The notes below the pieces were generated by a model. It saw nothing but the letters and a program-made list of their open reading frames with translations. It was not told the origin of the DNA and searched no databases. This document shows, piece by piece, positions 27,406 to 64,000 of a stretch of 64,000 nucleotides of DNA. The DNA is from a virus, in the IMG/VR virus record IMGVR_UViG_3300042923_000474, positions 62,001-126,000 of that record; one strand, given 5' to 3'. Both the position numbers and the translations under genes were made by a program. Every line of letters starts with the position of its first letter. The stretch's first letter is position 1.

Positions 27406-27435
27406 GATTTAACTGATTTTCAAACCTACATTACC
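27406..27435 (+). promoter_or_regulatory. Promoter-like element, copy 1
   Basis: A 30-base stretch with GATTTAACT at its start, AACCTA in the middle and TACC at its end, matching a second copy at 30446-30475 at 23 of 30 positions with no gap. It lies 53 bases upstream of the 47-residue gene. The rest of the 150-base gap holds only the hairpin and leader. Confidence 0.5.
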
Positions 27436-27641: not shown

Positions 27642-27965
27642 ATGTTTGACAATGATGTTACGGTTCTCTGCATCAGCGGTACTGCCTACTTGCTGTTGCT
27701 GATTGTGTTCTATTACAAGATCAAGCGTATGTACGCCAAGGTCTTGTCCAGGAAGGTTTCTCAAACAGAGGGAGGTAATCTGGATATCGTGGTATGGAAT
27801 GACACGCACGGCAGGACTGAGTACCTGAGTGTGGATACTTGCATACCGCTGGAAAAGTCTGCATCCGTAATTCGGGCTGTACGGATGTGGGGGATTGTAC
27901 GGAGAAAGTCCATCATCGAGATCAAGGATGTCAATGCATCCAAGATCCTGTATCGAACCTACTGA
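27642..27965 (+). CDS. Small membrane-anchored protein (paralogue family)
   Basis: A 107-residue protein with an N-terminal helix (about residues 8-26, ISGTAYLLLLIVFYY) followed by a basic linker. Its cytoplasmic domain ends SVIRAVRMWGIVRR...ILYRTY, matching the C-terminal pattern of genes 25350, 30540 and 30911. AAGGATG-type site upstream. Function unknown; the family may act at the host inner membrane. Confidence 0.65.
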   Translation: MFDNDVTVLCISGTAYLLLLIVFYYKIKRMYAKVLSRKVSQTEGGNLDIVVWNDTHGRTEYLSVDTCIPLEKSASVIRAVRMWGIVRRKSIIEIKDVNASKILYRTY

Positions 27966-27975
27966 GGGGTTTTAC

Positions 27976-28818
27976 ATGAATCGTCGTATCTTACCTGCGG
28001 TGCTTATCATTGCGGGGGTTGTGGGGTTGGTCACTGTCTGGTTGGAGGTGATGTCTTCTGGCGTCGTGCCACGCTGGTCGGCCTTTACCTTCCCCATCGG
28101 CTGGGTGTTGTTTGCCATTCTGCTCATTTCGATCAACCGCACCATGACCGTCAAGGACGATCTGATCGCCCGGAAACAGGCGACCAATGATCGACTGACT
28201 GAACAGTGCCGACTGACGCAGACGAATGTCGAGAATCTGGAACGTCAGGTTAGCGGCATACAGGACCAACTGCGTTCGGCGCAACATGCCCACTCCATGG
28301 TGTCGCTGGATCTGGCTACTCAGAAGTTGTTTGTTCGTCGCCTGAACGGCATCTGTGCGGACAACGGCATTGACACCCGTGCAGCCAACGTCCCACCTGC
28401 TGAAGCTGGACGTGAACTGAACAGCAGTCGTGTGGCCCGCGAGAACCCAGTAGCACCACCACCGGTGCCGCAATCTTTGCGTGGCCAAGTGGTCTCTCAG
28501 CGTCGTTCCATGTCTTCGCCTAATCCATCCAGTTCGCCTGTCATCCGTGACACCGACAATGGTGGTTTCGACGGTCTCATGGCCGGTGTGCTGATCGGGT
28601 CGATGCTGAGTGACGATTCTTCGGCGTCGCCACGTCGTGAGCCTGAACCAACCCGTTGCGAACCAGCCCCGACTTATTCGGAGCCTGTCCGTAGCGAACC
28701 GTCTTATTGTGAACCCACCCGCAGTTCAGGTGGCGACAGTTGGGGCGGTAACAGTTCCTCGTCCGAGTCGTCTTCCTCATCGGGTGATTCCGGTGGCGGT
28801 AGTGGCGGCGGCGATTAA
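27976..28818 (+). CDS. Two-helix membrane protein with coiled coil and Ser/Gly-rich tail
   Basis: A 280-residue protein. ATG 27976 follows GAGGGG; longer in-frame starts overlap the previous gene and lack a site. Two membrane helices (about residues 4-26 and 35-56) form a hairpin, followed by a coiled coil (residues 65-115), a Pro/Arg linker, a Glu-Pro-Cys-rich degenerate repeat (SEPVRSEP, CEPTRSS) and a terminal Ser/Gly stretch. Topology suggests the long tail stays in the cytoplasm. No family is recognised. Confidence 0.68.
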   Translation: MNRRILPAVLIIAGVVGLVTVWLEVMSSGVVPRWSAFTFPIGWVLFAILLISINRTMTVKDDLIARKQATNDRLTEQCRLTQTNVENLERQVSGIQDQLRSAQHAHSMVSLDLATQKLFVRRLNGICADNGIDTRAANVPPAEAGRELNSSRVARENPVAPPPVPQSLRGQVVSQRRSMSSPNPSSSPVIRDTDNGGFDGLMAGVLIGSMLSDDSSASPRREPEPTRCEPAPTYSEPVRSEPSYCEPTRSSGGDSWGGNSSSSESSSSSGDSGGGSGGGD

Positions 28819-28825
28819 CCCTCTT

Positions 28826-28856
28826 GCCCCCGGCCAAGTGCCGGGGGCTTTATACC
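28826..28856 (+). terminator. Hairpin between small genes
   Basis: Perfect 9-bp stem GCCCCCGGC/GCCGGGGGC (28826-28834 with 28840-28848), loop CAAGT, followed by TTTATACC. A short T-run but no TATGC; close to the family yet diverged. Confidence 0.6.
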
Positions 28857-28859
28857 CAC

Positions 28860-28873
28860 GTTCTAAGGAGAAC
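28860..28873 (+). promoter_or_regulatory. Shine-Dalgarno hairpin, GTTCT/AGAAC type
   Basis: GTTCTAAGGAGAAC folds with a 5-bp stem and AAGG in the loop, three bases before ATG 28877. The ribosome-binding site lies in loop plus 3' stem. Three more copies occur at 30523, 30891 and 31773. Confidence 0.6.
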
Positions 28874-28876
28874 ACA

Positions 28877-29638
28877 ATGTCCTCAACTTTTCCAGGTGCA
28901 ACTCGTCCTAGTCGTGAAGCAGACGATTGCCCATGTCAATACGACGACTGCACTGAAGTGGCCACGCAGGAATACTGCACTGAAGTGGACAGCATGGGCG
29001 GTGAGTGGCTGCCCCTGTGCGATGAGCACATCGTGCAGTTCAAAGAAGATGTAGCCAATGCCAATGCCATCTCTGACGGTGAGTGTGATTGGTGTAAAGC
29101 AAGAGATGTGCAGGTAGCCCCCTTCCGTGACTGGCAGGAAGGCACTCAGGGACCCGTGTACGAGGTTTGCGAGACTTGCCGCGGCAAGAGTATAGATGAG
29201 GCCAACAAGCTGGCAGACAACGTCCCAGAGGACGAGGAGGATATCAATGGCGACGTTGATACTTTCGCGCAGATGCCAGAGCTGGACGATGACGCCATCG
29301 GTGAGATGTTCTTTGCCCCAGGCGTTGGACGCAGTGCTGATTACGACTGTGATGAACTGAACCTGTTCAAGCATTCGAACATTGGTGAACCCATTCGGTC
29401 TGACCACCACTTCAACCTCAATGGTCCGATGCTGGTAGATGGTCAACTGGGTTTCTCTGCACACTTCCAGGACGGCATCCACTTTGTGATTGCGCTGGAT
29501 CTGGATCTGGGGATGATGTTCTGGGGGGTTAGTTTTGATAACCCGCTTTACTTCATCGCCATCGGCCCTCGTGTTAATCGCATTCGTCTTCGCCTAGCCG
29601 CCCTTGGCTACCGCGTACTTGACACTGAAGAACTTTAA
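28877..29638 (+). CDS. Protein with two cysteine (zinc-finger-like) clusters
   Basis: A 253-residue acidic protein. The N-terminal 100 residues hold two likely zinc sites: CPCQYDDC...C...LCDEH (residues about 18-55) and CDWC...CETC (about 73-100), the latter a zinc-ribbon pattern. Residues 110-160 are strongly acidic and probably disordered; the last 90 residues are a beta-rich domain. Zinc-ribbon plus acidic linker suggests interaction with a nucleic acid or host transcription/translation protein, but this is a guess. Starts at ATG 28877 behind the hairpin ribosome site. Confidence 0.7.
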   Translation: MSSTFPGATRPSREADDCPCQYDDCTEVATQEYCTEVDSMGGEWLPLCDEHIVQFKEDVANANAISDGECDWCKARDVQVAPFRDWQEGTQGPVYEVCETCRGKSIDEANKLADNVPEDEEDINGDVDTFAQMPELDDDAIGEMFFAPGVGRSADYDCDELNLFKHSNIGEPIRSDHHFNLNGPMLVDGQLGFSAHFQDGIHFVIALDLDLGMMFWGVSFDNPLYFIAIGPRVNRIRLRLAALGYRVLDTEEL

Positions 29639-29648
29639 GGATAGTCCC

Positions 29649-30452
29649 ATGACTACTGCAAACCCGCTCCAAGACAAACTGCGTTCGTTGTTCCTGCTGT
29701 GCGACTATGCCAACATCAGTTCTAACGATCACCGTGACTGCTACAGTACGGCTGAGGAGGAGATCAAGAAACGCAATCCTAAAGTCAGCGAAGACATCCT
29801 GGCTGGGATGATCGAAAGCAACGTGTGGCACGAGATCACCATCCACCCAGTGGGCGCTCGTAGCCGCATGTCCTTCATCGGCCATGACTTCATCTCTACG
29901 TTGAACGATGCGTTCGCCATGGCGGTGATGTTCTCCAAGGAAGCCTGTCCTGAAGGGGATGACATTATCCTTACTGATGAAGAGGATAACGCCACCCTCA
30001 ACTACGTCAAGCTGAGCAATACTTGCCGTGCGTCTGTTGGACTTACCTTCAACGGCTGGCGGGATGATCAGGTGAGCACGCAGGACGGTCCCCAAGAGGC
30101 GACTGCCGAGAACCACCTGCGTAACCACATCGAGTGGGAAGACGATGAGGAGTGCACCGAGTACCTGACCGAGGAGTTGATTGCTGCAATGTGTGAGCCA
30201 GGCTCTGAGTCTGTCTTCTACATCCACGCTTACCCCAACACCCCTGTCGGCAGCTACAGCTTCTATGGTCTGAACTCTCATCAGGTCATCAAGGCCATGC
30301 TGCAGATCTGCACAGAAGCCACCCAGTTCGATGCTCCCCAGCCAGCCGGCATGAACATTGAGTTGTCTCGTGTGGCAGCAGAGCTGCGTCGTCAAGGCGC
30401 TGAACCGTCCGAATTCTGGACTAGCCGTGAAAAGCCAAACGATTCGATTTAA
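29649..30452 (+). CDS. Unidentified acidic protein, 267 residues
   Basis: The ATG at 29649 follows AAGGATAG and lies 10 bases after the previous stop; a start 15 codons earlier would overlap that gene without a site. The protein is acidic and soluble, with helical N-terminus and mixed C-terminal half. No motif is recognised. Co-transcribed with the zinc-cluster gene. Its stop codon is inside the second promoter-like element. Confidence 0.65.
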   Translation: MTTANPLQDKLRSLFLLCDYANISSNDHRDCYSTAEEEIKKRNPKVSEDILAGMIESNVWHEITIHPVGARSRMSFIGHDFISTLNDAFAMAVMFSKEACPEGDDIILTDEEDNATLNYVKLSNTCRASVGLTFNGWRDDQVSTQDGPQEATAENHLRNHIEWEDDEECTEYLTEELIAAMCEPGSESVFYIHAYPNTPVGSYSFYGLNSHQVIKAMLQICTEATQFDAPQPAGMNIELSRVAAELRRQGAEPSEFWTSREKPNDSI

Positions 30453-30475
30453 CTAAAAATCGAACCTATAATACC
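30446..30475 (+). promoter_or_regulatory. Promoter-like element, copy 2
   Basis: Second copy of the 30-base element (GATTTAACT...AACCTATAATACC), 23 of 30 positions equal to 27406-27435. Contains CTATAA/TATAAT. It lies 64 bases before ATG 30540 and overlaps the end of the previous gene, which argues that the DNA signal itself is selected. Confidence 0.5.
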
Positions 30476-30522
30476 CACGTGAATAAGGTTGAATAAACTT
30501 CCTTGTTCACATCAATCCCCAT

Positions 30523-30536
30523 GTTCTAAGGAGAAC
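30523..30536 (+). promoter_or_regulatory. Shine-Dalgarno hairpin, GTTCT/AGAAC type
   Basis: Same 14-base sequence as at 28860, three bases before ATG 30540, with the shared CCCA/CCCC leader upstream. Confidence 0.6.
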
Positions 30537-30539
30537 AAA

Positions 30540-30875
30540 ATGGAAACTTACTTCATCGTTTCTGGCGTTATCGCCAATGCTGTTGTTATCGCTGCTGCCC
30601 TGCTGTGGATCGTCTACTGGGTGATCCTGCGTAAAGGTGTGGATGTACGAGAGGTAGGCGTTATGAACGCCGAAGTGAAGGAAGGCGATGACTGGGTTGA
30701 GGTGGTTGAAGAGGGCGGAGTGGTTAAGCACTATATCCTGACCTTCACGGCTATCCGTCACCGTTACTACTCCATCTGGTCCATGCGCCGTCAGATCTGG
30801 AAGTCTGTAAAGCGCATGCATCCAAACGTCAGAGCTGTTAGCGTGGAAGGCTTCGCTTACGGTTTCGACGACTAA
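30540..30875 (+). CDS. Small membrane-anchored protein (paralogue family)
   Basis: A 111-residue protein starting at ATG 30540 behind the hairpin ribosome site. N-terminal membrane helix (residues 4-30), an acidic middle (NAEVKEGDDWVEVVEE) and a C-terminal basic part IWKSVKRMHPNVRAV...AYGF that closely matches the next gene (IWRSVKRYDDRVSAV...TYSF). The two genes also share the same kind of leader, so they arose by tandem duplication. Function unknown. Confidence 0.68.
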   Translation: METYFIVSGVIANAVVIAAALLWIVYWVILRKGVDVREVGVMNAEVKEGDDWVEVVEEGGVVKHYILTFTAIRHRYYSIWSMRRQIWKSVKRMHPNVRAVSVEGFAYGFDD

Positions 30876-30890
30876 TCAACCTATCCCCAA

Positions 30891-30904
30891 GTCCTAAGGA
30901 GGAC
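30891..30904 (+). promoter_or_regulatory. Shine-Dalgarno hairpin, GTCCT/AGGAC type
   Basis: GTCCTAAGGAGGAC: the stem differs from the GTTCT/AGAAC version by a compensatory T-A to C-G change. Six bases before ATG 30911. Confidence 0.6.
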
Positions 30905-30910
30905 ACTGTA

Positions 30911-31222
30911 ATGACCGCTATCATCGTTATCGCTGTACTGGCTGCAATCGTACTGACTGTTGTTGTAGCACGTCGTATGCGTCACCATGGCTTCACCTTG
31001 CAAGAGGTATCCATCTATCAAGAAGCTGCCTCTCAAAAGGCTGACAACTTCGTAGAGATCACTGTTGCTGGCTGCCGTCTGCGCAAGCCACTGGCTGTAG
31101 AGGTTGAACTGGAACGCCGGTTCAATCCAGAGAAACTGCGTGAAGCCATCTGGCGGAGCGTTAAGCGTTACGATGATCGTGTGAGCGCTGTGCGTTTCCA
31201 AGGTCACACCTACTCGTTCTAA
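30911..31222 (+). CDS. Small membrane-anchored protein (paralogue family)
   Basis: A 103-residue paralogue of the preceding gene: N-terminal helix (residues 3-19, AIIVIAVLAAIVLTVVV), basic stop-transfer segment, and C-terminal IWRSVKRYDDRVSAV. Followed by a TATGC hairpin, so the pair and their promoter-like element form one short unit. Function unknown. Confidence 0.68.
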   Translation: MTAIIVIAVLAAIVLTVVVARRMRHHGFTLQEVSIYQEAASQKADNFVEITVAGCRLRKPLAVEVELERRFNPEKLREAIWRSVKRYDDRVSAVRFQGHTYSF

Positions 31223-31230
31223 AACTAAAC

Positions 31231-31264
31231 GGTCCGGCTCTCAGGTGAGGGTCGGACCTTATGC
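31231..31264 (+). terminator. Plus-strand hairpin followed by TTATGC
   Basis: 12-bp stem (31231-31242 with 31247-31258, loop AGGT) containing two G.U pairs that are legal only on plus-strand RNA. TTATGC at 31259-31264. No U-tract. The next ATG is 20 bases downstream. Confidence 0.68.
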
Positions 31265-31283
31265 CGACTAAAGGAGCAAGATA

Positions 31284-31556
31284 ATGGCATCTGTAAAAGT
31301 AATGGTAAACCGCGTAAACATCCTCGTCCTCCCTGACTTCCGTAAGGTGCTCAAGGAGTGGGAGAAGTTTGGCAACACCACCGGCGAACGTCTGGTGGGC
31401 ATCGTCGTCACCCCTTGGGATGGCGAGTACAACCTGGAAGAGGTCATGACTTCTTCTCGCTTCTCAATCCCCGGCTTGCAAGATGCAAAACGGGACCTCA
31501 TGGCGACTATCGCCGAATACGACAAGGTCACTATCAATGAACGTCGAATTGCTTGA
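31284..31556 (+). CDS. Unidentified small protein, 90 residues
   Basis: ATG behind AAAGGAG. A soluble, mixed-charge protein with a strand-helix start (KVMVNRVNILVLPDFRKVLKEW) and a helical end (LQDAKRDLMATIAEYDKV). No family recognised. Overlaps the next small frame by 20 bases. Confidence 0.62.
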   Translation: MASVKVMVNRVNILVLPDFRKVLKEWEKFGNTTGERLVGIVVTPWDGEYNLEEVMTSSRFSIPGLQDAKRDLMATIAEYDKVTINERRIA

Positions 31557-31719
31557 AATGAATAACCTGATCCTCTCCATCGGTGCACGCCTGCGTCAAG
31601 TCTCCCTGAGTCTTGCACAGGCTACCGGCCACTGCCGTGAACTGCTTTCCGTTGAACGAGACGTCCTGCTTAACCAGTACACTTCACTCTGCAGCCGTAC
31701 CTCCACCCTGACCGCCTAA
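31537..31719 (+). CDS. Unidentified small helical protein, 60 residues
   Basis: Best start ATG 31537, inside the end of the previous gene; an ATG at 31558 is also possible. The product is a single long helix-rich chain (ILSIGARLRQVSLSLAQATG). No motif. Ribosome site is weak (AAGG at long spacing), suggesting coupling to the upstream gene. The 74-base gap that follows holds only a leader. Confidence 0.5.
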   Translation: MNVELLEMNNLILSIGARLRQVSLSLAQATGHCRELLSVERDVLLNQYTSLCSRTSTLTA

Positions 31720-31772
31720 GCTTAGTCTTAAGCGCATTGGGTGGCAGTGCATTTAAGAGTGAACTTCCCCAC

Positions 31773-31786
31773 GTCCTTAGGAGGAC
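31773..31786 (+). promoter_or_regulatory. Shine-Dalgarno hairpin, GTCCT/AGGAC type, loop variant
   Basis: GTCCTTAGGAGGAC: the stem is as at 30891 but the loop is TAGG instead of AAGG. Six bases before ATG 31793. Confidence 0.58.
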
Positions 31787-31792
31787 AACCCC

Positions 31793-32053
31793 ATGAGCGA
31801 ACAAAATGATCCACTCGATCAACTAACCCCTGAGAATCGCATCAAGTATGAAAACTACAAACGCGAAGATCAGTTAACCGCAGACCTGCTCCACGGCATT
31901 GTCGCCATGGCAAAGATGTTGCGTGGTCGTGACATCTTCGGCTTGGAAGGCAAGGGTGCTCTGGACTCTTTCCAACAGAGTGAAGACATTCAATGGCTGA
32001 TGGACCACACTGGCGTAGCCGGTTGGGATGACCCCATTGACCCAGCAGACTGA
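31793..32053 (+). CDS. Unidentified small acidic protein, 86 residues
   Basis: Last gene of the plus-strand small-gene run, behind a hairpin ribosome site. Acidic, soluble, with a central helix (LLHGIVAMAKMLRGRDIFGL) and an acidic aromatic C-terminus (WDDPIDPAD). No motif recognised. Ends at a convergent hairpin. Confidence 0.65.
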   Translation: MSEQNDPLDQLTPENRIKYENYKREDQLTADLLHGIVAMAKMLRGRDIFGLEGKGALDSFQQSEDIQWLMDHTGVAGWDDPIDPAD

Positions 32054-32055
32054 CA

Positions 32056-32094
32056 GCATAACCGCCCTCCCATTACGGGAGGGCGGCTACCTGC
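32056..32094. terminator. Bidirectional hairpin with GCATAA flank
   Basis: Perfect 10-bp stem CCGCCCTCCC/GGGAGGGCGG (32062-32071 with 32077-32086), loop ATTAC, between convergent genes. GCATAA on the left; the right flank reads CTACCTGC, the only one of 16 convergent flanks lacking TATGC. Confidence 0.72.
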
Positions 32095-32097
32095 TTG

Positions 32098-32235
32098 CTA
32101 TTTATTTTTTTGTTTCTGAACACGATCACTGATCTTGCTCAAGGCGATCCCCGCAACAATTTCACGGATAGCCTGACGACCCTGGCACATTTGCTGACTG
32201 GTCATGATGGGTACGCGCTCTGCCACTGCTTGCAT
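32098..32235 (-). CDS. Small basic protein, 45 residues
   Basis: Minus-strand frame starting at ATG 32235 behind AAGGA (six-base spacing), directly after the SUKH-like gene. Peptide has a hydrophilic N-terminus and a helical REIVAGIALSKISD segment, ending in the basic KQKNK. The T-rich run near 32100-32112 is therefore coding. Function unknown. Confidence 0.6.
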   Translation of the reverse strand: MQAVAERVPIMTSQQMCQGRQAIREIVAGIALSKISDRVQKQKNK

Positions 32236-32244
32236 GTTCGATCC

Positions 32245-32718
32245 TTACTTGATCTTGGAAAGCACCATGGAGATGAATTCCTCTAGGGATTTGGCGATGA
32301 TCTGCCGTTTAGGTTTACCGGTGCGGAAAAGGATGATCTGACCCCGTCGCCCACCGGCTGCTGGCGCTTGGTCAATGCAGTAATAGTCTGCCCCATTGAT
32401 TTTGGCAAACGGAATCCACGCAGGGTTCCACCAGGTAGCTGCGACCCCAGAGTCCGGCACAGCTTTCTTGTCGTCGGTCTTGCCATCGGTGTAGGTCTCG
32501 TTGAAACCTTTCCAGAGGGTCAACACCTTCTGATGAGGCAGGAATACAATCTTGCCCCCTTCAGTCTTGATGGACATCCCGTTGGATTGTTCCAGCGCAG
32601 AGCGCAGGTCCTTGGGCATGTCGATCTTTGCTTTCTGTTCGTTCGCATCGGCCTTGGCCTTATCGAGTTCAGGTCCCTTTTTTACACCTTCCGGCAGGGA
32701 TGACAAGTTAACGGCCAT
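32245..32718 (-). CDS. SUKH/SMI1-KNR4-like protein
   Basis: A 157-residue protein whose residues 35-155 follow the SMI1/KNR4 (SUKH) pattern: MPKDLRSALEQSNG at the start, then WWNPAWIPFAKINGADYYCID, a Gly-rich turn GGRRGQIILF, and the terminal helix AKSLEEFISMVL. Bacterial SUKH proteins are mainly immunity proteins to polymorphic toxins. In a phage it may bind and neutralise a host toxin or effector, but this is inference. The first 30 residues are charged and likely flexible. Starts behind AGGAG, overlapping the upstream stop by 11 bases. Confidence 0.7.
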   Translation of the reverse strand: MAVNLSSLPEGVKKGPELDKAKADANEQKAKIDMPKDLRSALEQSNGMSIKTEGGKIVFLPHQKVLTLWKGFNETYTDGKTDDKKAVPDSGVAATWWNPAWIPFAKINGADYYCIDQAPAAGGRRGQIILFRTGKPKRQIIAKSLEEFISMVLSKIK

Positions 32719-51022: not shown

Positions 51023-51703
51023 GTGGCCGGTAATCGTAAAGCTGCTGAAAAGATCATACTGAGCGACTTGGCTCTCTACGACAAGTCCCCCGGTAAGGAC
51101 AACGTCAAAAACTATGCCGCGTATTTCGCCGCAATGAATGATGCGCAATTCGATGGTTGGGTAGATCGGGTTGACAAACAGGAAGAATACATCCAGTTCA
51201 AAGTCCCTAACTTCCAGGGCAAAGACCTTACCTTCGAAGAGATCCTCGATATTGGGGATCGGGTAGGTTACAAGTTCTTCGAACGCATCTGGATCACCGA
51301 CCGGGCAACCGGCATCACCATGCTGTCGCCGCACGAGTACATGATTATCGTGCAGCCATTGCGACGCCAGTCTCAGTCGCTCATGGGCAAAATGTCCACG
51401 GCTGAAGATAACAGCCACATCGATACTTTGACCGATCAGCCAACTGGCGAGTCAAAGACCAGTAGCCTCTCGTTCGTAGAGACTCAGGTGGTGAGTAACC
51501 AAGGCATCCGTAAGCCCTTGGAAGAACTACTGCGGGTGCGTGGGGGTAACCTCAAGGCATTGGCACGGTTCGAACAGCAGTTCCTTGAATACGGGGAGGG
51601 GTCATTGGATGCGCCGGGCATGGAACAGGGTAAAGTAAAGTCTGTGCAAAACACGGCCATCTATCTGCGTGCAATGCACCTGGATAACAACTTCGATAAG
51701 TAA
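51023..51703 (+). CDS. Possible RNA polymerase beta C-terminal-like protein
   Basis: A 226-residue protein starting with GTG 51023 behind AAGGGG. Residues 91-177 (ITDRATG..., DQPTGESKTSSLSFVETQVV, LEELLRVRGGN) align in order and spacing with the end of bacterial RpoB (ydGrTGe...STG.yslvTqQP...gGqrfGemEvwal...tLqEml), although identities are few. phiKZ-type phages encode split beta subunits of this kind, but theirs are larger. It may be a fragment subunit or a coincidental fold. If real, this phage carries its own multi-subunit polymerase. Confidence 0.5.
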   Translation: MAGNRKAAEKIILSDLALYDKSPGKDNVKNYAAYFAAMNDAQFDGWVDRVDKQEEYIQFKVPNFQGKDLTFEEILDIGDRVGYKFFERIWITDRATGITMLSPHEYMIIVQPLRRQSQSLMGKMSTAEDNSHIDTLTDQPTGESKTSSLSFVETQVVSNQGIRKPLEELLRVRGGNLKALARFEQQFLEYGEGSLDAPGMEQGKVKSVQNTAIYLRAMHLDNNFDK

Positions 51704-58986: not shown

Positions 58987-61900
58987 TCACACGGACGTTG
59001 GAGCTTTGACACTCATTGGACCACCTGCCCCAGTAGCTGGAGCACGTTGACTTTGTGCTGCAATGATCTGCAACAGCTGCACTTGTTGTTGCTGCAACTG
59101 TAGAGACTTCGAACCAATGTCGATCAGCTTGTCAATGCCTGCACCAGAAGTGTTAGCCGCTGATGTAGTATTGGCTGCTGCTTGCGCTGCACGCTGTTCC
59201 GCCTGTACCTGGGCTTGGCTTGGGGATGGAGCAGATGTACCCGGAGCCGAAGCACCCGTGTCGCCACCGCCGCCACCCGAAGAACCGCCACCAGAACTGG
59301 TAGGAGCCAACGAGGTTTTGAGCAACTCTGGAGGAGCGCCCGGTGCTGCTGCAATGTCGGCACCACCCGAGTTAGCATCACGCGCCATGGAGGCCACGGA
59401 TGGTTTACCCTGTTCACCAACTGGACCACCTGTCGTCGGAGCATTGCCAGCAGCCGAGGCATCAGGGTTAGGACCCGTATCCTTAGGCTGACCTGCAACA
59501 GTCTGCTCTGTACTGCTCAGTGGGTTCACACCTTCGCCAGCACGCAACATGCTGTCGTCAACCTTCTCACCCTTGGACTTCATGTAGGAGTACATCAGCG
59601 AACCGAACTTGTTCCGGTTGCCCACCTGCTTAGCAGCCATGAGATCGATGATCTGACGGAACGTACGCGGCTTGGATTTGTCGCCACCCACGTAGAAGAT
59701 CGGTTTGTTATAACCTGCCTCCTTCGGCATGACATCCGCACCGTACTTGTCCAGATTCTTGAGCGCGGTTTTGTAACCACCGGAACCCAAGAAGTGAGCC
59801 ATGTACGCATCCACATCCGTCAGTGGACGGTTGAGAGTACCTTTGAGCGACTCCATGTTGTCCTTCATGTACATTACTGTCATGAGGGCGTTAGCACGTG
59901 GATCGTTCGGGTCGGTACCTTCCTTGATACCAAACTTCGCACCGTGCTTTTTGATCATCGCTTTCCAGGTACCCGTGATGAACTGACCCAGACCAGTCGC
60001 AGAGCCACCCATAGAAGATTTAACCGAGGAGTCAAACCCAGACTCAGTGGCCATGAGGCCAGCAAGTACACCTGGATCTACGCCGGTCATCTTCGCTACA
60101 GCCGCAATCAGCTCTTTGTGAGCGTCAAAACCTTTGCGGGATGTAGGCATTGGCAAGTCATTGACATTGCCGGCACTGCCACCATTCGGGTCAAACGTCA
60201 GACCGACGCCACCACCATTCTGAGCATTGTACTCACCCGGCTTACCACCTACCCCTTGGTTGTAGAGATCCGTCTTGTTCTGGTTGTAGGTATCGGAAAG
60301 GTTGCCGCCCGCGGTACGTTCACCGGAGCTTGGACCTTTGAACATGTTGGTGAACCAGTTGCCGCCTTCCGAAGAAGGAGTAGCGCCCTTATCACCGCCT
60401 GCACCGAAGAAGTTCTTGACGCTATCCACAGCGCCAGAGAAGAAGTCTTTGGTCTTAGACATCAGACCGGACTTCACCTTACCAGACTCACCCGCCACCT
60501 CATCGAGTTGTTGCTTCTCGATGTCTTTGATGAGCGCCTTCATGTTATCCGCCGCAGTCGACGAATCCATGTTAGGTGCATCACCGTAGTACGGAGACAG
60601 GGGGACCTTCCAGATGGCTACAAAGTTGTCTTTGTAGTACGAACCCGCAGAGATCACCGCCTCAGCCAACTTGTATTGCTCAGTTGGTTTGCAGTGAACG
60701 TGAGCCAGCAATGGATCGGTGTTACCCGACACCGCCTTGAGAGCACCCACGTAGGCTTTGTACACGGGCAAGAAGCGATAGTTCAACCAGTCCTTGAAGG
60801 TGTTGAAGCTTTCCGACCCAGGTTGCCCCACGCCGAACTTCGCACCCGCCAGACCAATCAAGTCTTCCAGCGTGCCGGTGTAATCAGCCGAGCCGTCCGA
60901 ACTTGCCCGCATCTTCTGCTGAGCAGCCCACTCCAGATACAGCAAGGCATGAACCTTCTGCACATCCAAAGTGATCAGGCCATACGCACGCATACGGATC
61001 GTACGCAGTGGGTCCAATGGACCTTTAGGCAACAGCGATGTTGGGAACTCATTCGCAGCAGAGCCAGACGTTGGACGCGTACCACCACTCATGGCCAGCG
61101 CACCCGCCATGACAGGCGTCACAGAACCCACTGCCATAACCGCAGCAGCAGAGCCCATGGTTTGCTGGGTGGTCATCACCTTGGACGGTGCAGCGACTTC
61201 AGCCACCACGGCAGCCCCAGCCACACCTGTACCCAATGCAGCAGCCTCAGCCGCCAGTTGCCGCGCCTTGTCGTTCCCACCCTCTGGCAGCGGTAGGTCA
61301 GTCTTGGCGTTGGCTTTACCGAACTTCTCCACAGCAGCGTCAGCCAGTGCTTTGATAGCTGATGGATCGGTGAGCATGTTCATGTCTTCACCGGGAGCCG
61401 AACCAATGGTCCAACCCGCGCTACCCGCCGTCTTCACCAATTCGAGCAAGGTCTTCTTGGTTTCGTCGTTGAGCTTGTCATCCACCTCAGGTAGTTTGGC
61501 AGAAGCATCTACCTTGTTCAGGGCCATGACCCAAGTGTCGAACACCAAACGGAATCGCTTGTCGTACCACTCTTGGAAGCTTCTGAACTTAAGGTCACGT
61601 GGCTTCTCTGGATCGATGTCAAACTCTTTCAGAGCTGCGATTGCATCATCGCCACCTGCGCCCACGTCGATCTTGCCGTCGGTGACTTTGGTGTGTTTGA
61701 GAATCTTCTCCTCAAAGGCCAACATCTTCTTGGCCACATCGCTATCCTTACCATCCCACCCGTACTGAGCCAACCTGAGTCTTTGCAGCGGACGATCTTT
61801 CGATGCGTCGTACCACTTGTACGCAAGCCATGCCACAGTACCCACAGCCATCGCAATACCCACAGCCGCCATAACAGGAGCCGACACAATACCTGCTGCC

Positions 61901-64000
61901 ACAGCGCCTGCACCCAGAGCCCCACGCAATGCCCAACCACCGGCAGTGCGCAGACCCAACCCAATGGCACCCCGAGCACCCAAACCGCTTACAGCACCGC
62001 GTAGGGCACCTACACCGGGGATTCGACTAAGCATGCCACCAAGGCGACCAACACCAGGGATACGGCCCAGTTTGCCACGCAGCCAACGACCAGCTCCCTT
62101 GGTCTTGTTCCAGAGCTTACCCAGTCCTTTCTTACCATGCTCTGCCAAATCAGCAGCATTAGCAGCGTCCTGCAGATCCAACCCACCTTCTTCATCCTCC
62201 TCTTTCTTCTTGCCCCCGAACAAACCTTTGAGCTTATCACCCAAAGCGGCCAGTAGCCCACCGCCAGCAGCGGCCTTACCAGCACCCCCAGCACCCATGG
62301 CCTCACGATCCTTATCCTTCTCGGACTTGGCGTTGCGCTTGGCTAGGATGTCCTGCCAGCTACCTTCCACGACACCGTCACCATCTCGGTCACCGGTCTT
62401 ACGCTTCTTGTTCGCTGGGTTCATCTGGGCGATCTGTTCAAGGATCGCAGTTTGCACCTCAAGTTGAGCCGACAGGATTCCGTTTGCGCCCGAGTCTTCA
62501 CTCAGCCAACGGTTGATCTTGCCACCCAATCCAGACAGGGAACTCAACGCCCAGTTGCCGAAGCCCTTGGCACGTTTCAGTACGCCCTTACCGAAGTTCT
62601 TGAGACCTGTGTAAAGCTTCTTGCCATTTTCCCACGCAGCATTGCCCATCGCTTTAACGCGACTGACTGCCGTGAGCCAGTTGGCCTTGACCTTTTCGCC
62701 GTACTGGTCGACCAAGCCCTTACGCATGTCATCCAATGACAGTACGAGGTTACCCTGCAAGTCCACCACGTCGCCCTTGATGTCGCTGAGCTTGGTGATG
62801 ACCTTGTTAGTGGCCTTGTCGATGTACCCGCCGTTCTGCAACACGAACTTGAGCAGACGAGGTGTGTCCTCACCCGCCACGTAGACGTCGTGCAGCTCGG
62901 TCATCTTGCCCCAGGCCCAGTCTTTAGCAGACTTGAACGCGCCAGTGATCTTGCCGGCCAAATTACCCCAAGCCCCAGATACCCGCTCAAACAGGTTCTT
63001 GCCCAAGTCCTTGACGTTCTTGATACCGGCCATCACAACACGGCGACCCAGTCGGTCATGCAGACCCTTCTTGATGTCGTCGATGGTCAGGACAATGCGA
63101 GTGGTACCGTCGTCCATCAACTCTTCCACTTCCCCGGTGATATCGGAAAGCTTCTTGATGATTTTGCCGGTGACCTTGTCGCGGTACATGCCCAGTTCAA
63201 TCTTGCGGGCTTCCAGTGCAGCGCGTTCCCAACCCTTGACATAGACGTCAACGATCTGACCTTTCCAGTTGTCGGCAAAGGTAGCGAGCTGCCCCATCTT
63301 GTCCTTACCGAAGGACAACGCCTTGCCTGCTGTTTGACGAGCAGAGGTCAGACGATTGCCGACTGCTTTACGGGCTTTACCGAACATGTCACGAGCGCCT
63401 GTGAGCGCGCGCTTGCCACGGTTCTTCCACACGGCACCTTCGGTACCCAGTTGCTTGCCATTCACGATGAACAGATCGTCAGACACCACCACGTTGGCTT
63501 GTTGACGGCCGTCCGTGAGAATGTCCATGATCTCTTCCAACACCAGCGTTTGATAGCCTGAGTTGTAAGTGTCGTTCATGCTTTGCAGCGCTTCAATGAT
63601 CTTGTCCATACGGGACATGTATTCATCGATTGGACCACAGCATGCATCATCGTCGTTCTTAGCCTTGGTGTCTTGCAGAGCCTTGGCCATGGCTTCGCCC
63701 ATCAGGTTGTAATTGATGGTGCCACCGGTTGGGAGCAGGGGTTGCTTACTGCGGTTCTGTTGAGCCAGCAGCTGTTGGTTGGTGAACTGTTGCAACGAGG
63801 TGGACAGATTGTTGATGGCCTTGTTACCAGCACCTTTACCGCCGCCGCCCCACTGACGACCTTTAGGTGAGTAGGCCCGTGGACCGAAGTCCTGACCCGC
63901 CTGCCCTTCACCCAAACGCAGATCATTGATCGCATCAAGGTTCAGTGTAACGTGGCCGTCCTTCTCATTCAGCAGACCAGCAGCAATCAGTTCTTCCTTG
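58987..64000 (-). CDS. Giant tail protein with lytic transglycosylase domain (5' end beyond window)
   Basis: The frame is open to base 64000, so at least 1670 residues. Two copies of a DVYV...G.Y.D..T.K.I..LSDI module lie near 63.25-63.04 and 62.89-62.69 kb. A membrane-like stretch is at 61.96-61.80 kb. An SLT transglycosylase domain is near 60.15-59.65 kb with catalytic Glu codon 60043-60045 (MATESGFDSS) and ATGLGQF. The C-terminal 160 residues are Gly/Ser/Ala/Gln-rich. It acts as a tail-associated muralytic or tape-measure-type protein, digesting peptidoglycan during entry, as phiKZ gp181 does. Confidence 0.78.
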   Translation of the reverse strand, partial: KEELIAAGLLNEKDGHVTLNLDAINDLRLGEGQAGQDFGPRAYSPKGRQWGGGGKGAGNKAINNLSTSLQQFTNQQLLAQQNRSKQPLLPTGGTINYNLMGEAMAKALQDTKAKNDDDACCGPIDEYMSRMDKIIEALQSMNDTYNSGYQTLVLEEIMDILTDGRQQANVVVSDDLFIVNGKQLGTEGAVWKNRGKRALTGARDMFGKARKAVGNRLTSARQTAGKALSFGKDKMGQLATFADNWKGQIVDVYVKGWERAALEARKIELGMYRDKVTGKIIKKLSDITGEVEELMDDGTTRIVLTIDDIKKGLHDRLGRRVVMAGIKNVKDLGKNLFERVSGAWGNLAGKITGAFKSAKDWAWGKMTELHDVYVAGEDTPRLLKFVLQNGGYIDKATNKVITKLSDIKGDVVDLQGNLVLSLDDMRKGLVDQYGEKVKANWLTAVSRVKAMGNAAWENGKKLYTGLKNFGKGVLKRAKGFGNWALSSLSGLGGKINRWLSEDSGANGILSAQLEVQTAILEQIAQMNPANKKRKTGDRDGDGVVEGSWQDILAKRNAKSEKDKDREAMGAGGAGKAAAGGGLLAALGDKLKGLFGGKKKEEDEEGGLDLQDAANAADLAEHGKKGLGKLWNKTKGAGRWLRGKLGRIPGVGRLGGMLSRIPGVGALRGAVSGLGARGAIGLGLRTAGGWALRGALGAGAVAAGIVSAPVMAAVGIAMAVGTVAWLAYKWYDASKDRPLQRLRLAQYGWDGKDSDVAKKMLAFEEKILKHTKVTDGKIDVGAGGDDAIAALKEFDIDPEKPRDLKFRSFQEWYDKRFRLVFDTWVMALNKVDASAKLPEVDDKLNDETKKTLLELVKTAGSAGWTIGSAPGEDMNMLTDPSAIKALADAAVEKFGKANAKTDLPLPEGGNDKARQLAAEAAALGTGVAGAAVVAEVAAPSKVMTTQQTMGSAAAVMAVGSVTPVMAGALAMSGGTRPTSGSAANEFPTSLLPKGPLDPLRTIRMRAYGLITLDVQKVHALLYLEWAAQQKMRASSDGSADYTGTLEDLIGLAGAKFGVGQPGSESFNTFKDWLNYRFLPVYKAYVGALKAVSGNTDPLLAHVHCKPTEQYKLAEAVISAGSYYKDNFVAIWKVPLSPYYGDAPNMDSSTAADNMKALIKDIEKQQLDEVAGESGKVKSGLMSKTKDFFSGAVDSVKNFFGAGGDKGATPSSEGGNWFTNMFKGPSSGERTAGGNLSDTYNQNKTDLYNQGVGGKPGEYNAQNGGGVGLTFDPNGGSAGNVNDLPMPTSRKGFDAHKELIAAVAKMTGVDPGVLAGLMATESGFDSSVKSSMGGSATGLGQFITGTWKAMIKKHGAKFGIKEGTDPNDPRANALMTVMYMKDNMESLKGTLNRPLTDVDAYMAHFLGSGGYKTALKNLDKYGADVMPKEAGYNKPIFYVGGDKSKPRTFRQIIDLMAAKQVGNRNKFGSLMYSYMKSKGEKVDDSMLRAGEGVNPLSSTEQTVAGQPKDTGPNPDASAAGNAPTTGGPVGEQGKPSVASMARDANSGGADIAAAPGAPPELLKTSLAPTSSGGGSSGGGGGDTGASAPGTSAPSPSQAQVQAEQRAAQAAANTTSAANTSGAGIDKLIDIGSKSLQLQQQQVQLLQIIAAQSQRAPATGAGGPMSVKAPTSV

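Follow-up and report, generated by a model that had tools for sequence, protein, structure and literature searches.

What is the role of four nearly identical, self-complementary 14-mers, each placed on the ribosome-binding site of a different phage gene? The question is raised by a 64,000-nucleotide stretch (hereafter the window), bases 62001–126000 of the 231,724 bases of IMG/VR virus record IMGVR_UViG_3300042923_000474, which, judged from its gene content, is a distant phiKZ relative, i.e., a phiKZ-like jumbo phage. Each 14-mer can fold into a small hairpin that takes in the Shine-Dalgarno (SD) sequence and lies 3–6 nt upstream of one of the ATGs given in the initial annotation (28877, 30540, 30911 and 31793). 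In several jumbo phages, particular early genes were found to keep this pairing over the SD. We favour, with moderate confidence, the reading that the hairpin is an RNA element acting in cis on early messages, in which a weak hairpin half-covers a very strong SD and gates early-gene translation.

A conserved stem over the SD of particular early genes

The 14-mer GTTCTAAGGAGAAC is present at 28860..28873 and 30523..30536 (both GTTCT-AAGG-AGAAC), GTCCTAAGGAGGAC at 30891..30904 (GTCCT-AAGG-AGGAC) and GTCCTTAGGAGGAC at 31773..31786 (GTCCT-TAGG-AGGAC, with an altered loop on the same stem), all on the + strand. The element has the consensus GTYCTWAGGAGRAC and a length of 13–14 nt, with a 5 bp stem and a 3–4 nt loop; the GG of the SD lies in the loop and its AG in the 3' strand. 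With up to 2 mismatches allowed, a scan of the window gave 5 matches vs. 1.99 expected, a number reached in 2/100 shuffles. The search of the whole genome for the 14-mer class returned 10 exact matches, all on the + strand and all shortly before an ATG, six of them forming a second cluster at record positions 159828–164847. The two arms do change together, as had been proposed, but at the third pair (T3-A12 to C3-G12) and not at the fifth, the loop-closing T-A pair being invariant among the four window copies. Likewise, CCCA does precede the stems, but it does not abut them, one variable base lying between (CCCAC, CCCAT, CCCAA, CCCAC).

Relatives were found by a pattern scan of IMG/VR, three of them close (G004, G014 and G008) and four distant but phiKZ-like (G016, G018, G013 and G010). 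Sites were selected only by the presence of CTNNGGAG with an ATG 2–8 nt downstream, and the three outer pairs were then scored. All three were formed at 10/25 sites in the record itself (G000), 11/25 in G004, 4/16 in G014, 7/24 in G008, 9/16 in G016 and 15/23 in G018, as compared with 1/77, 3/63, 2/39, 3/76, 1/28 and 4/76, respectively, at sites without an ATG; in phage EL, none of the 8 sites with an ATG at that distance had all three. The stem arms seen include, among others, GTC, GTT, GAT, ATC, GCT, GAC, AAT, ATT, TTT, TCC, ACT, AGT and GTA. At 106 unique sites, selected for CTNNGGAG, an ATG and an upstream CC, Watson-Crick outer pairs stood at 77/74/76 vs. 38/43/36 after permutation, with maxima of 53/59/51 in 5000 shuffles, which places the covariation seven to nine standard deviations above permutation.

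A comparison of orthologues, picked by protein similarity, gave the same picture gene by gene. Full-length orthologues in G004, G014 and G008 retain the hairpin, and compensatory changes were observed at pair 3 in the 28877 gene (GTT..AAC to GTC..GAC in G004, U-A to C-G; the G004 and G008 orthologues both read GTCCT-AAGG-AGGAC), at pair 2 in the gene at record position 160802 (GTT to GAT..ATC in G004, U-A to A-U) and at pair 1 in that at 162956 (to ATC..GAT in G014, G-C to A-U). The 160802 leader of G014 is a triloop, GTTCT-AGG-AGAAC, in which loop length is altered and the stem intact, and one G014 copy precedes a GTG start rather than an ATG. Five interleaved genes lack the hairpin in every relative found. 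The double changes at pairs 1, 2 and 3, the triloop variants and the permutation controls thus strongly support the proposal that the stem, and not the SD alone, is conserved; the jumbo-phage stems vary enough to indicate that selection in these early operons preserves an RNA stem, gene by gene.

Two simpler explanations can be judged on the same data. Weak hairpins around purine-rich SDs are common and SD hairpins number just 22 genome-wide vs. 15 expected, as would be seen if chance, strong SD selection and recent duplication had acted together. However, the excess is exactly this 14-mer class, the hairpin class is at chance level (3/65) in 16 cultured phiKZ-like phages, and the orthologue comparison and the permutation test refute such an origin, which we consider scarcely credible. 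A general excess of SD hairpins in the genome was also rejected, none being found outside the class. A feature acting on DNA, i.e., an inverted repeat serving as the site of a DNA-binding protein, or a linker at which early gene cassettes recombine and move, is very improbable as well. The 14-mer is indeed an inverted repeat, the early clusters are mosaic and two of the hairpin genes look like paralogues, but the asymmetric AAGG loop is always in the coding orientation, 3–8 nt before the ATG, and arm covariation between orthologues, like a change of loop length on a preserved stem, is expected neither for a fixed operator nor for a homology linker.

Early operons carrying the hairpins

The record encodes homologues of EL's RNA polymerase subunits, both virion and non-virion, and of the large terminase, and it has the EL-type early promoter motif AACCTANATTA; these are the features by which membership of the phiKZ-like phages was assessed. 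The terminase has matches in 305 phage records, every one below 60% identity; a search by DNA found no close cultured relative, and searches with the hairpin-gene proteins gave either no relative or a single shared domain. The promoter motif is annotated as a putative phage promoter in EL's own record, and motifs like it are described as promoters of the virion polymerase (PMC7598289). The window also encodes part of a beta-type subunit of a phage RNA polymerase, homologous to EL gp175 (51023–51703, +), and a tail-associated lysozyme-like protein (phrog_3201; 58987–63915, −).

All 10 hairpins are held by three operons behind EL-type promoters (window 27423, window 30463 and record 159769). The initial annotation had spoken of one functional gene set, and to this extent it was right, since all 10 genes belong to early operons; their non-structural products are mostly ORFans (without recognizable relatives) or proteins without known function. 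Upstream gaps of the hairpin genes span 27–138 nt, vs. a median of 10 for the other + strand genes. The arrangement behind an early promoter recurs in G004, in G014 and in the main cluster of G008, and several G018 clusters stand directly behind one; in the G018 leaders the early promoter is followed by the 5' stem-loop, then by the C-rich linker, the SD hairpin and the ATG. The promoter is nevertheless a separate, known element (PMC7598289): the hairpin-bearing operons begin with it, but cultured phages that have it lack the hairpin set.

In the window, a predicted early promoter core of virion RNA polymerase type, AACCTACATTA (27423..27433, +), which matches the EL-type motif exactly, lies upstream of the operon leading to 28877. 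A terminator-like stem-loop, GCCCCCGGC-CAAGT-GCCGGGGGC (28826..28848, +), can be read just before the first SD hairpin, which is followed by a gene for a 253 aa protein with a cysteine-rich N-terminal half (28877..29638, +; phrog_15864, unknown function). Homologues of this cysteine-rich early family are found in G004, G008, G018 and Klebsiella phage Eowyn; the leaders have the hairpin in the uncultivated G000, G004, G008 and G018 and none in Eowyn. After an interleaved gene without hairpin (29649..30452, +), likewise without it in G004, come a second promoter core, AACCTATAATA (30463..30473, +; consensus from phage EL), a 5' stem-loop, GTGAATAAGG...CCTTGTTCAC, where the early transcript is predicted to begin (30479..30510, +; fold z = −4.4), and the C-rich, G-free linker AATCCCCAT (30514..30522, +), which leads into the second SD hairpin.

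The second and third hairpin genes encode proteins of 111 aa (30540..30875, +) and 103 aa (30911..31222, +). They look paralogous, with a hydrophobic N-terminal stretch (a probable membrane helix) and a similar C-terminal part, and both match one G008 protein, whose leader is a triloop hairpin, ATTCT-AGG-AGAAT. A further interleaved gene (31284..31556, +) has no hairpin, either here or in G004. The product of the fourth hairpin gene (31793..32053, +; 86 aa) resembles a portion of the proteins that G004 and G008 have as orthologues of another hairpin gene, that at record position 159847 (locus L014, 13847–14731). The large product of the 159847 gene has a ≈66-residue domain in common with EL gp162; the EL gene has no hairpin. 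No curated Rfam family matched positions 27800–32300 at E ≤ 1.

A TGAAT-type stem-loop is often seen right at the presumed start of predicted early transcripts (window 30463–30510; locus L014 13769–13830; G018 loci). Its z-scores are −4.4 and −2.1 at the two G000 promoters directly before hairpin genes and −5.0 in G004. A strong 5' hairpin as a rule for early transcript starts was rejected: it is strong in several, but the mean strength is not above that of control leaders.

Comparable elements in other phages

None of the papers in the collection searched contained these hairpin sequences. The closest described features are the Start-Associated Sequences (SAS, 5'-GGGATAGGAGCCC), with the Extended SAS (ESAS), in mycobacteriophages of cluster K and the SAS-like repeats 5'-GGGAAAGGACCCC in Microbacterium phages of cluster EF (PMC3203893, PMC7302621). 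The ends of the SAS consensus are self-complementary (GGG...CCC), and its function was left open by the authors of those papers. The features in common are a 13–14 nt repeat with an AGGA core at the ribosome-binding site, 3–7 nt before mostly ATG starts (3–6 nt before an ATG for 10/10 copies here); about 10–20 copies, essentially in a single orientation; non-structural genes only, often with larger upstream gaps, as also found in the early operons of this record; largely gene-by-gene conservation; self-complementary outer parts; and a frequent position behind a promoter-associated repeat. As to ESAS-type upstream repeats, stem-loops precede many copies here, without a shared consensus being seen. 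There are also differences. A 3 bp GGG/CCC stem in SAS stands against the 5 bp stem and 3–4 nt loop of our consensus, whose stems vary with compensatory changes, none of which are reported in the SAS papers; phages and early promoters are here phiKZ-like, of the virion RNA polymerase type, and a YCCA linker replaces the 17 bp inverted repeats. Since the SAS consensus had no match in the window with up to 2 mismatches, the jumbo-phage set is not filed as SAS, even if it works like one.

Among the phages on Actinobacteria, the contig G001, an Arthrobacter-phage relative (portal 65% identical to that of Racecar), has, in the locus L090, a series of small genes each preceded by an SD hairpin, mostly of the triloop form GTCCTAGGAGGAC. 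In the cultured Arthrobacter phages Racecar and Atuin, like hairpins occur with other stems (GATC, AGCC, GTCC) and with linkers of the ACCAACC type. Small early-region gene arrays, with SD hairpins of triloop or tetraloop form and linkers rich in CCAACC, were observed at L090, L312 (Racecar, 8.4–14.2 kb) and L313 (Atuin, 7.5–10.5 kb), and the IMG/VR contigs 3300013102_000003, 3300018429_000011 and 3300025728_000145 have 4–9 hairpin copies each. Across IMG/VR, GTCCTAGGAGGAC is enriched 12–25-fold over unpaired arms, and the arm before CCTAGGAGGACANNATG is the pairing GT in 75 cases vs. CT in 6, CA in 4 and GA in 3. The tetraloop form showed no preference across viruses (GT 25, CA 23, CT 12 and GA 2 among the matches listed), and contigs with a single copy in the pattern scans are mostly chance.

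How the hairpin may act

We infer that the hairpin acts at translation initiation. The eight bases before the stem form a C/A-rich, almost G-free YCCA linker, with 6% G vs. 20% in controls, where the profile is flat, and with C at −4 in 70%, C at −3 in 67% and A at −2 in 68% of 73 sites; CCA was required in the pattern behind part of the first contig set, but most of the counted sites were found without that requirement. As the spacing between linker and stem varies (in G018), a pseudoknot between the linker CC and the loop GG was rejected. Taken alone, the hairpin has a predicted energy of −2.5 (GTT) or −4.6 to −4.9 kcal/mol (GTC), as compared with −9 to −12 kcal/mol for SD-antiSD pairing with the ribosome. 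Tight repression by such a weak hairpin alone is thus unlikely; the hairpin can modulate initiation but, on its own, is not expected to prevent it. In the proposed gate, a fast-folding weak hairpin would half-cover an unusually strong SD, the ribosome would wait on the unstructured, single-stranded linker and then open the hairpin, and initiation at early genes would thereby be tuned and insulated from the neighbouring sequence, the gate being self-contained and independent of context. Local folding of the 10 leaders made the hairpin likely in seven (0.73–1.0), even in one and disfavoured in two.

Some observations weigh against this gate. The two disfavoured leaders, those at 28860 and 31773, prefer other structures locally (hairpin probability 0.18 and 0.11), cassette duplication may account for part of the repetition of GTY stems within one genome, and the conserved linker C residues exceed what mere single-strandedness needs, hinting at a recognising factor. 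Moreover, a 27-row leader alignment (pairing in 100% of cells, of which 21 are doubly changed, a level reached by 0/500 shuffles, as compared with 37–77% pairing in slid registers) was selected among paired sites and is therefore biased, a bias from which the CTNNGGAG counts and the orthologue and permutation tests are free.

The conserved linker bases leave some room for a trans-acting factor, namely a phage repressor or activator that would read the CCA linker and the SD hairpin as its operator and switch the early set together. With C-4, C-3 and A-2 conserved at about 70% each, a hairpin common to a defined early gene set and a T4 precedent in the gp43 operator hairpin (PMC3014915), this is possible, if rather unlikely. 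The stem sequences, however, vary freely within a genome, the linker-to-stem spacing varies in G018, and RegA (PF01818) and RegB (PF10715) were each found in 0/8 phage records. A search for a trans-factor gene common to the hairpin phages and absent from EL gave forty candidates, among which none could be chosen. At CsrA/RsmA sites, the loop of a hairpin at the SD contains ANGGA. The GGA of our SD is likewise at the loop, but off-centre, TAGG, TTGG, CAGG and GAGG loops are tolerated, loop starts TA, TT, AG, CA, GG and GA occur so that ANGGA is not in the loop at every site, and no CsrA homologue was found in the phage. Unrelated actinophages with the same design would, furthermore, need independent factors. 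Nothing found supports the shared RNA-binding repressor suggested by the initial annotation. The recurrence of the design in phages unrelated to each other, among them a group infecting Actinobacteria, shifts the odds away from one common repressor and towards a gate sensed by the ribosome, and it points to something to which the ribosome or the host RNA machinery responds.

A role in RNA stability or processing, by which structured 5' ends, C-rich linkers unfavourable to RNase E and a structured SD would protect early messages, or a cut in the linker would release single-gene messages, appears improbable. Many copies do stand right behind a terminator-like or 5' stem-loop, and in T4 the structure around the SD sets GGAG cleavage by RegB/S1 (PMC3014915). 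The T4 sites are also in early genes with GGAG in a defined structure, and the RACANAA found downstream here resembles their consensus GGAGRAYARAA. Nevertheless, the variant stems break the RegB consensus and keep the pairing, and the absence of a RegB homologue speaks against this role too; protection has no need of a strict SD/ATG register, several copies come directly after a coding region, and the 5' stem-loops of early transcripts are on average no stronger than control leaders.

With the ribosome-sensed gate as the preferred reading, it is conceivable, though doubtful, that the phiKZ-like, Arthrobacter and cluster K/EF SAS hairpins are one convergent class, marking a distinct post-infection translation regime for chosen early genes through the state of the ribosome or a factor confined to infected cells. 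Phage start-associated sequences have been on record since 2011 with no function assigned to them, and the SAS consensus alone could not tell DNA, RNA sequence and RNA structure apart. The covariation described here adds evidence suggesting that the SAS-type element is an RNA stem. The jumbo-phage set turns the SAS puzzle into a testable statement on how translation starts; the role of the hairpin could be tested in culture with Racecar and Atuin, whose Arthrobacter host is a soil bacterium.

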